Positions 60,251 to 64,000 of a stretch of 64,000 nucleotides of DNA are shown piece after piece. Made by a program: the position numbers and the translations under genes. How positions within the stretch are numbered: the first letter of the stretch is position 1; each line of letters opens with the position of its first letter. A model generated the notes under the pieces. It worked only from the letters and a program-made list of their open reading frames with translations, had not been told where the DNA came from and made no database searches. The stretch is from the NCBI GenBank assembly GCA_019358895.1, contig JAHHIG010000008.1, positions 124,001 to 188,000 of the forward strand, in the 5' to 3' direction. The stretch comes from Tildeniella nuda ZEHNDER 1965/U140. GTDB taxonomy: Bacteria; Cyanobacteriota; Cyanobacteriia; Leptolyngbyales; Leptolyngbyaceae.

Positions 60251-60469
60251 GTGTTAGACGAAACAACGCTTGAACAACGCCTGGTAACACTTGAGGCAGC
60301 CGTTTCTGACCTTCAACAAAAGCTTGAAGAGAAGCCAGCCTCTAAAAACTGGTTAGAAAAGCTCATTGGTTCAATCTCTGATGAGGACGTTTTTCGTGAA
60401 GCTCTAGAGTATGGACGTGCCTTTCGTCAGGCTGACAAGCCAAATGATGAAAGCGGCGAACAATCGTGA
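60251..60469 (+). CDS. VapB-like antitoxin
   Basis: 72 residues from GTG 60251 after AAGGAAAG. N-terminal coiled-coil (EQRLVTLEAAVSDLQQKLEEK), C-terminal acidic helix with DEDVFREALEYGRAFRQAD, typical of antitoxin toxin-binding tails. Overlaps the PIN-domain gene by 4 bp (ATGA/GTGA type). The antitoxin assignment rests on this position. No DNA-binding fold recognised. Confidence 0.7.
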   Translation: MLDETTLEQRLVTLEAAVSDLQQKLEEKPASKNWLEKLIGSISDEDVFREALEYGRAFRQADKPNDESGEQS

Positions 60470-60894
60470 AGTATTTGCTCGATACCGATCACATTAGCTT
60501 TCTACAGCAGCGCCGAAGTCTGGAATTTGCTCGTTTGACAGCTCGCATACAACCGTTCAACCCTGCTGATTTTGCGCTATCGGTTGTTAGCTTCCACGAA
60601 CAAGTGCTTGGCGCTCATAGCTTTATCAACCGTGCCCAGACAAATGCTGATTTAGCGCGTGGTTATGCTCTGCTGTTAGAAATCCTTGATGGTTTTGCAA
60701 TGGCTCCAGTTTTACCGTTTGATGCCAAAGCGATTGACGTTTTTGATCAGTTGCGTGAGCAGCGAGTTCGTGTTTCCACAATGGATTTGAGAATTGCCGC
60801 GATCGCCATATCCCACAAGTTAGTGCTGTTAACTCGAAATGTGAGTGATTTCAGTAAAGTTCCAGGGTTGGTAACAGAAGATTGGACGGCGTAG
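60466..60894 (+). CDS. VapC-like PIN-domain RNase toxin
   Basis: 142 residues. The PIN catalytic acids are at expected places: LLDTDHIS (D), SVVSFHEQ (E), TMDLRIAAIAI (D) and LTRNVSDFSKVPGL (N, D). VapC toxins cleave tRNA or rRNA. Preceded and overlapped by its small antitoxin-like gene. Second module of the island, in tandem with a protease pair downstream. Confidence 0.88.
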   Translation: MKYLLDTDHISFLQQRRSLEFARLTARIQPFNPADFALSVVSFHEQVLGAHSFINRAQTNADLARGYALLLEILDGFAMAPVLPFDAKAIDVFDQLREQRVRVSTMDLRIAAIAISHKLVLLTRNVSDFSKVPGLVTEDWTA

Positions 60895-61796: not shown

Positions 61797-62933
61797 TTAC
61801 CGTGACACACTGCGCGGGTCAAGGGCATCGCGCAGACCGTCGCCCAGTAAGTTAAACGCCAGAACGGTGAGAATAATTAGCAGTGCGGGGGGCCAAATCA
61901 GCCAGGGTTGCAGCACCAGAATCGAGGCATTGGTCGCTAGTGAGAGCATATTGCCCCAGGATGGATCGGGCTGCTGAATGCCCAAACCGATCAAGCTCAA
62001 AATCGACTCTGCCACGATAAAGTCGGGAATGGAAAGCGTGGCGGAAATCACAATATAGCTGGCGGTTTGAGGCAGCACATGGCGGATAATGATGTAGAGC
62101 GATCGTCCTCCCATTGCCCGCGCTGCCTGTACAAATTCACGCTCTTTAATCGATAACACCTGCCCACGAATCACCCGCGCCAACCCAGCCCAGCGGATAA
62201 AGGATGTAATCAGAATGATGAGCAAGAACCGTTGGGCGCTGCTGAGTCCTGGTGGTAGTACCGCCGCTAACGCAACCAGCAAATAAATACTAGGAATGGT
62301 CATCAGCACTTCAACCAGGCGCATCAGGACGCTATCGATCCAACCACCAAAGTAGCCAGAAATGCCGCCAACCAACATTCCAAGCGGGAACGAAATGATG
62401 ATGCCAACCAGACCAATACTTAAGCTGATGCGTGCGCCATACAGCAAGCGACTGAACTGATCGCGTGCCTGCTCATCCGTGCCCAAGAGGTTGAATTTCC
62501 CCGCTCCAGCAGTACCAAACAGGTGCCAGTTGCCCGGGATGCCGCCAAATACCTCAACTTCATCAAACCTGGGATCGGCAAGCGAAAACCTGGTCGGCAG
62601 CGGTAGCTTAATTTGCAATAAACGGTATTCATCGCCGACAACAAAGAGTCGTAGCGGCGATGGTTTGCTGCGATCGACCACCAGTTGACGATCGCCCGTG
62701 TTTAAGTCCACTGGACCCTGTGTCGTGGGATAGACATATGGACCAGTAAACGCGCCAGCTTGATCTTGCCAATAGATTTGAGTCGGCGGCAGCAGTGCTC
62801 CGTCTGGTTGCGAGGCATACGGGTCATACGGCGAAACAAACTCGGCAGCGATCGCCGCTACATAAAACAGCAGCAGTAGGATCGCGCCAAGTCGAGCGAG
62901 AGGATTGTTCTTAAGTCGTTGCCACCAGTTCAT
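61797..62933 (-). CDS. ABC transporter permease (DppC/OppC type)
   Basis: 378-residue membrane permease. N-terminal helix ARLGAILLLLFYVAAIAAEFVSPYDPY, then an unusually long periplasmic-side insertion (about residues 40-150), then the BPD_transp_1 part with GTDEQARDQFSRLLYGARISLSIG and the EAA-like loop VQAARAMGGRSLYIIIRHVLPQ. The family imports peptides or nickel; which one is not evident. The usual partner permease and ATPase genes are not in the window. Confidence 0.85.
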   Translation of the reverse strand: MNWWQRLKNNPLARLGAILLLLFYVAAIAAEFVSPYDPYASQPDGALLPPTQIYWQDQAGAFTGPYVYPTTQGPVDLNTGDRQLVVDRSKPSPLRLFVVGDEYRLLQIKLPLPTRFSLADPRFDEVEVFGGIPGNWHLFGTAGAGKFNLLGTDEQARDQFSRLLYGARISLSIGLVGIIISFPLGMLVGGISGYFGGWIDSVLMRLVEVLMTIPSIYLLVALAAVLPPGLSSAQRFLLIILITSFIRWAGLARVIRGQVLSIKEREFVQAARAMGGRSLYIIIRHVLPQTASYIVISATLSIPDFIVAESILSLIGLGIQQPDPSWGNMLSLATNASILVLQPWLIWPPALLIILTVLAFNLLGDGLRDALDPRSVSR

Positions 62934-63161
62934 AGTGCAGGCTAAACGCCGAGAAGTTGCTGTTAGTGCGGAGAAAAGCTGAGCGACCGAGTGACTGACA
63001 GGGTGATCACGCTCTTTAAAATCGTACTCCGAGTCCGTTCAAACTTAGCATGGACACGACGAAGAACAGAGGACAAATAGTCAGAAGGCACCAGATAGAC
63101 AGCAGAGACAAAAAGTAGAAGACTTTTACGTTGATGTCGATCGCCTGCACCTACTTCCTTT

Positions 63162-63183
63162 TTGGCACTCGTAAATGTGCCAA
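63162..63183. repeat. Inverted repeat next to the DnaA boxes
   Basis: TTGGCAC and GTGCCAA, perfect 7-bp arms with an 8-bp loop, 46 bp left of the first box. Confidence 0.65.
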
Positions 63184-63228
63184 AATCACGACTTTTTGCG
63201 GTTTTGCAATTCTTATTCTTCGCCAGAG

Positions 63229-63312
63229 TTTTCCCCACCGATTCCACAGACTTTCCACAGGTTTTCCACAGAGATCACGAGTTTTTCCACAGGATTACGC
63301 TCGTTTTCCACA
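63229..63312 (+). promoter_or_regulatory. Phased DnaA-box cluster, candidate replication origin
   Basis: Six same-strand 9-mers: TTTTCCCCA (63229), GATTCCACA (63240), CTTTCCACA (63251), TTTTCCACA (63262), TTTTCCACA (63283) and TTTTCCACA (63304). Spacings are 11, 11, 11, 21 and 21 bp, close to one and two helical turns, so all boxes face the same side. TTTTCCACA is the cyanobacterial DnaA-box form. No dnaA or dnaN gene occurs in the window, so origin function is inferred from boxes alone. Confidence 0.65.
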
Positions 63313-63713
63313 CCATAGAACCGTAGAATCGGACTTCTGCGTGTTGCGCGTCACTCAGCCGATCGCGCCTTCATGCTGAGAAAACTCTGCAAAAGACTAA
63401 GTAATGTTTCGGGGATCGCTTATAAATGCCGATTCTTTCGTTAGCCCGTTTAGGCATCAATGTTCAGTCGGGGATGAACGACATTGACAAGCAAACCGAC
63501 CTCTAGGCACAATGATTGACTTATCCCCGCAAGCGTTCTGAAACCCACGCCAACAGCACTGTTTGCGTTTGAAGAATCCGAGCGACTGTGGTGTGTGCCT
63601 TAGTTTCAACGCTGCGGCACGCGAATCTTGTTGGCTTTTTACCAGGGTGCAACGTTGCATTACTTCCTAATCGCTTCATATCAACGTGCTTCTAGCATTC
63701 ACTGAGGTTCTCA

Positions 63714-63914
63714 ATGACCACGACCGTTAGCATTCTGGCTGAAATTCCTGAAGAACTTCATACGGCAATCACGCTCTACCTCGAAAGCCGTCCCGACTGG
63801 GATCAAGATCGCGTCTTTGCGGCTGCACTGTCCCTCTTTTTGTTGCAAAATGGAGATTGCGATCGTCGTGCTGCACGAGTTTACCTGGATGCGCTGTTTA
63901 ACCATGCCGTTTAG
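63714..63914 (+). CDS. DUF2811 family protein
   Basis: 66-residue cyanobacterial protein, recognisable by VSILAEIPEELHTAITLYLESRPDWDQDRVFAAALSLFLLQNG and the C-terminal AARVYLDALF. Helical, soluble, no catalytic residues. Function unknown. It stands beside the candidate origin, but I know of no documented link to replication. Confidence 0.88.
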   Translation: MTTTVSILAEIPEELHTAITLYLESRPDWDQDRVFAAALSLFLLQNGDCDRRAARVYLDALFNHAV

Positions 63915-64000
63915 CGATCGCGTCTTTGAAATTGCCGCTTTGAGCGATCGGACTCGACTGCAATTTTAAGCTCTGAGCGTTTTTAAGAGGGTTTCTTCAT

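Follow-up and report, generated by a model that had tools for sequence, protein, structure and literature searches.

The DnaA-box array at positions 63229-63312 of the window (the whole stretch of DNA that was analysed, 64 kb in length) is probably a DnaA-responsive cis-regulatory element of the promoter of a DUF2811 gene and not an origin of replication, judging from sequence comparisons. Such comparisons established that DUF2811 genes throughout cyanobacteria are fronted by a phased array of same-strand boxes in a fixed position, with an HLR1-like element on one side and a sigma-70-type promoter on the other. The arrangement occurs in nearly all cyanobacteria with DnaA and looks ancient. Among the genomes of the class that were sampled, DUF2811 was detected in every one that bears dnaA and is missing from most of those that do not.

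The original prediction described six 9-mers on one strand within a gene-free region of 780 bp, and both observations were confirmed. The boxes lie on the + strand at steps of 11, 11, 11, 21 and 21 bp: box 1 (63229-63237, TTTTCCCCA, one mismatch), which corresponds to the first box in most relatives, box 2 (63240-63248, GATTCCACA, two mismatches), box 3 (63251-63259, CTTTCCACA, one mismatch), and boxes 4, 5 and 6 (63262-63270, 63283-63291 and 63304-63312), which are all perfect TTTTCCACA. On one side of the gene-free stretch (62934-63713) begins an OppC-like permease gene (61797-62933, - strand); on the other lies the DUF2811 gene (63714-63914, + strand), which encodes 66 amino acids and matches PF10929 with an E-value of 1e-27. 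A direct-repeat element resembling HLR1, the RpaB site (TTTGCAATTCTTATTCTT, 63203-63220, + strand), begins 26 bp before box 1, in a register common to most homologous loci. Beyond the boxes, a predicted sigma-70-type promoter (63484-63513, + strand) is composed of a -35 TTGACA (63484-63489), an 18-bp spacer and a -10 CACAAT (63508-63513), with transcription expected to start at ~63520. A search for a structured RNA leader in 62900-64000 gave no Rfam match at E ≤ 1. Elsewhere in the window (60251-60894, + strand), a 72-aa ORF overlaps the start of a PIN-domain gene (PF01850), in an arrangement like that of a VapBC-type toxin-antitoxin pair.

The array is far above chance. When at most one mismatch is allowed, five boxes are found in 84 bp on one strand; none of 60 first-order Markov versions of the window exceeded two. 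The whole genome, a 6.08-Mb draft of 38 contigs in which the window belongs to contig C35, contains only four tight groups of perfect boxes: the window array, the dnaN-proximal oriC (C9:167682-167877), a pair ahead of a second DUF2811 gene (C7:48654-48683), and a triad (C9:575004-575064). The region upstream of the second DUF2811 gene on C7 is the only other part of the genome that is similar to the array region; its arrangement is identical, and both paralogues carry the array. A third, divergent DUF2811-like gene (L326) is situated at C38:164547-164717, and no DnaA box with up to one mismatch was found in the 4 kb around it. The triad on C9 is a second conserved element outside oriC, in which three perfect TTTTCCACA boxes at steps of 31 and 21 bp (L037:10003-10064) sit where guaA and a 214-aa gene converge, between their 3' ends, and not at a promoter. 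More than half of 30 relatives have it 15-290 bp past guaA; the G025 copy is located elsewhere, behind the 214-aa gene. This guaA-linked triad is a candidate DnaA titration or DARS-like site.

For the comparison among cyanobacteria, DUF2811 loci were gathered within the family, across the phylum and from named genomes, and the upstream span from -720 to -200 was scored. At least two same-strand boxes were present in 184 of 198 non-redundant DUF2811 upstream regions, as against 7 of 1410 control windows taken at these loci, and at least three were present in 162 regions and in none of the control windows, where a box is called by mismatch to a single consensus and the loci share phylogeny and are not independent. 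The upstream regions carry a mean of 3.6 boxes on the strand of the gene and 0.3 on the opposite strand. All 25 family labels sampled, which by record name span Nostocales, Pseudanabaena, Acaryochloris and Thermosynechococcus, include a copy with at least two boxes, and most genomes of the family have two such arrays. The most frequent steps between boxes are 22 bp (198 cases), 21 bp (153), 11 bp (90) and 12 bp (16). Since 498 of the 518 steps of up to 70 bp measure 10-12, 20-23, 31-33 or 43-44 bp, that is, near whole helical turns throughout the loci, the phasing is conserved, and the phased, head-to-tail design put forward in the original prediction is supported. Counting against the regulatory reading, a clear array is absent from the divergent third copies, from several picocyanobacterial copies (which have one perfect box) and from two dnaA-bearing genomes of family label f6. 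Within f6, the DUF2811 arrays at L259 (G055) and L262 (G110), both from genomes with dnaA, are eroded to weak CCCCA-type boxes, and DnaA may be dispensable in these lineages. In Synechocystis, DnaA is reportedly dispensable.

The order of elements is fixed: the HLR1-like element 26 bp ahead of the array, the boxes at 11-, 21- or 22-bp steps, and then the promoter. HLR1 is defined by the direct repeat (G/T)TTACA(A/T)(A/T)NN(G/T)TTACA(A/T)(A/T). Four B-type copies (L063, L064, L079 and L083) contain an exact HLR1 and eleven further regions differ from it by one mismatch, compared with no shuffled region within two mismatches. The A-type copies, including that in the window, carry a highly uniform derivative, TTTGCAATTCTTATC, with at least three mismatches. 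A promoter of the form TTGACA-N16..19-[TC]ANAAT is recognized in 126 of 188 regions and in none of 188 shuffles, and its -35 element starts a median of 174 bp past the last box (10-90% range, 169-187). By contrast, the distance from promoter to gene varies from 68 to 266. Identical blocks are seen in alignments within Stenomitos and within Nostocales; Stenomitos/Leptolyngbya are the nearest named relatives by DUF2811. The constant distance between array and promoter, the use of one strand and the presence of the array at both paralogues make it look like a transcriptional control element.

The distribution of the gene also connects it with DnaA. Across 141 genomes from the class Cyanobacteriia, dnaA and DUF2811 occur together in 124 and are both absent from 13; DUF2811 stands alone in four and dnaA in none (Fisher p 3e-15, with kinship ignored). 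Genomes without either gene belong to four family labels (f7, f11, f13 and f22), and relatives having both genes are known in f7 and f11, which makes it likely that the losses were several and independent. DUF3119, an unrelated cyanobacterial family used as a control, is retained in 12 of the 13 genomes that lack dnaA and DUF2811, and the loss of DUF2811 is therefore not part of general gene loss. Loss of dnaA has been published for free-living and symbiotic cyanobacteria (PMC7198777), and no mention of DUF2811 was found in that paper. The genomes with DUF2811 only are G181, G217, G301 and G089. The first three were set aside as natural knock-outs, as DUF3119 is broken in them as well and the genomes look degenerate. 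In G089, the DUF2811 frame is intact, the promoter is almost unchanged and the HLR1-like TTTGCAATTCTTATT element is kept, and no DnaA box with up to one mismatch is left in 1.5 kb at the locus. Its dnaA-bearing congener G155 has three perfect boxes.

That the array might be oriC, as was originally proposed, or a second origin, was suggested by its six phased boxes in a long gene-free region. This proposal was not borne out. The gene dnaN lies on contig C9 (L036, 8258-9433, - strand) and the window array is not adjacent to it; directly upstream of dnaN is a denser cluster of its own, with six perfect boxes on both strands (in the region L036:9640-9900), preceded by a DnaA-trio-like TAGTAGTAG, then AGCC, then a box. 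In Bacillus subtilis, the basal unwinding element has consecutive trios separated from a box by a short GC-rich spacer. The TAGTAGTAG, AGCC and box of the dnaN cluster resemble this element, and this cluster is likely to be the oriC of this genome. No DnaA-trio or unwinding element was found adjoining the window array. A AATTCTTATTTAAACAGT..AGTAG stretch upstream of dnaN is shared by this genome with the dnaN loci of G015 and G025. The window array and the dnaN-linked oriC have AATTCTTAT in common, with differing geometry; it is also present in the oriC of G015 and G025 and absent from the remaining dnaN loci checked. Clusters of TTTTCCACA linked to dnaN are the rule for oriC in most cyanobacterial species (PMC4674748). 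GC skew, calculated for the entire C35 and for 230 kb of C9, fluctuates irregularly without an extreme at the array or at the dnaN cluster and is uninformative here; many cyanobacteria commonly show such irregularity (PMC7198777). The DUF2811 loci of seven complete or near-complete genomes of the family are situated from ~0.3 Mb to antipodal relative to dnaN; the array, of which there are at least two per genome, accompanies the DUF2811 gene at whatever distance from dnaN and stays at a fixed distance from the conserved promoter. Two of the findings that had been named in advance as speaking against an origin, a denser cluster close to dnaN and nothing more than a DnaA-regulated promoter, agree with what was found. 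The window array was thus rejected as oriC on account of the cluster elsewhere, its variable position and the absence of a trio, and we regard an origin function as extremely improbable. Software that locates origins by scoring clusters of DnaA boxes can select DUF2811 arrays in genomes with a weak dnaN-linked cluster. In Nostoc punctiforme, the putative oriC is a reported box cluster distant from both dnaA and dnaN (Npun_F0036-F0037; PMC5987646), and it is worth checking whether this could be a DUF2811 array mistaken for oriC.

The array might instead be a reservoir or activity-control site that titrates DnaA or shifts its nucleotide state, its proximity to the DUF2811 promoter being secondary. 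Both B. subtilis and E. coli have multi-box arrays away from oriC with such roles (PMC5295017, PMC5835720), most family genomes have two arrays, and the disappearance of the boxes from the dnaA-less G089 would also fit. However, a pure sink requires neither a single orientation towards one gene nor a fixed distance to a promoter, and loss of the gene alongside dnaA is not expected of it. Moreover, the position of datA and the DARS loci relative to oriC is conserved in E. coli, unlike that of the DUF2811 arrays relative to dnaN. This explanation is therefore held to be unlikely. It is less likely still, and indeed quite improbable, that the boxes merely resemble DnaA boxes and are bound by a different protein, such as DUF2811 acting as an autoregulator. 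The link between the array and DUF2811 is compatible with this idea, and so is the predicted order of helices after an N-terminal extended stretch, which could fit a ribbon-helix-helix protein, with weak fold matches such as NikR (Z 3.0). In two AlphaFold2 (AF2) runs, the small, acidic DUF2811 protein was modeled with low confidence (pLDDT 65 and 71); in the model with a mean pLDDT of 71, helices span residues 13-25, 31-46 and 51-62, and the protein is probably helical. A search of the PDB with the model gave no convincing fold match, the best ones being weak and unrelated, no sequence relatives were found in the PDB, and Pfam lists no ribbon-helix-helix family; a ribbon-helix-helix fold would be a guess. 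Against binding by DUF2811, the 9-mer is identical to the boxes of the dnaN-linked cluster of this genome and of published cyanobacterial origins (PMC4674748), the protein is acidic and its model uncertain, and in G089 the boxes are gone though DUF2811 is intact, which is the opposite of what this explanation predicts.

The reading as a DnaA-responsive element has precedents. DnaA-box loci outside oriC at promoters are already known, and the array belongs to this broad category. In B. subtilis, clusters of DnaA boxes occur away from oriC, some of them at DnaA-regulated promoters such as those of sda, ywlC and vpr (PMC4447404, PMC5295017). Like these, the array is intergenic, multi-box and promoter-associated and uses the DnaA-box consensus of its own host. 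The sda promoter, where DnaA governs the expression of a small regulatory protein at the level of transcription, can be likened to the DUF2811 promoter, although the B. subtilis target genes and DUF2811 are unrelated by name. Unlike the B. subtilis clusters, the array is strictly same-strand and phased, and keeps a constant distance from the promoter of one gene family across the class. E. coli datA, DARS1 and DARS2 are likewise DnaA-box loci outside oriC, and DARS1 and DARS2 are situated in promoter regions (PMC5835720). The core of a DARS comprises three boxes and datA acts together with IHF, whereas the array is a long tandem on one strand with as many as 6 or 7 boxes. The TTTTCCACA boxes are shared with cyanobacterial oriC (PMC4674748), from which the array differs in lying away from dnaN, on one strand only and without a trio. 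Examples of HLR1 occur at light-regulated cyanobacterial promoters (PMC6331805); the B-type copies have the exact direct repeats of these sites before the array, whereas the A-type copies diverge from them, and the element in the window is only RpaB-site-like. What is new is the rigid, phased one-strand design, its class-wide tie to a single uncharacterised gene, and the joint loss of this gene with dnaA. Among the papers searched, none was found that names DUF2811 with cyanobacteria, or PF10929, nor any on a DnaA regulon in cyanobacteria, although such absence is not proof of novelty.

In the mechanism that we propose for the DnaA-responsive element, DnaA would assemble head-to-tail on the array, whose boxes share one helical face, and the oligomer, ~170 bp upstream, would alter transcription from the TTGACA...CACAAT promoter. 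DUF2811 output would then track DnaA status and, through it, the replication cycle. The situation of the array upstream of the promoter argues against a simple road-block. A distance of ~170 bp from the -35 element is far for classical activation, which counts against the preferred explanation; regulation through looping or a DnaA filament would be a guess. In dnaA-less G089, the promoter and the gene survive box-free, which makes a modulating role of DnaA more likely than that of an obligatory activator. The HLR1-like element near the array suggests light or redox input, and an RpaB-type regulator may act there. In Synechococcus elongatus, DnaA binding to oriC depends on photosynthesis (PMC6478999).

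The joint loss of DUF2811 and dnaA suggests that the DUF2811 protein itself acts in the DnaA pathway, possibly as feedback. As a tentative extension, which we consider possible but rather doubtful, DUF2811 may be a dedicated cyanobacterial protein of the DnaA pathway, a functional counterpart of regulators of the YabA, SirA or Hda type. DnaA on the array would set the level of DUF2811, DUF2811 would act back on DnaA or on initiation, an RpaB-type regulator at the HLR1-like element would feed in light, and the module would be discarded when DnaA is given up. The coupling of DnaA activity to light and growth in cyanobacteria is poorly understood, and DUF2811, under an apparently DnaA-controlled and possibly light-controlled promoter, is a candidate for a component still missing from the picture of replication control, and one that can be tested directly.
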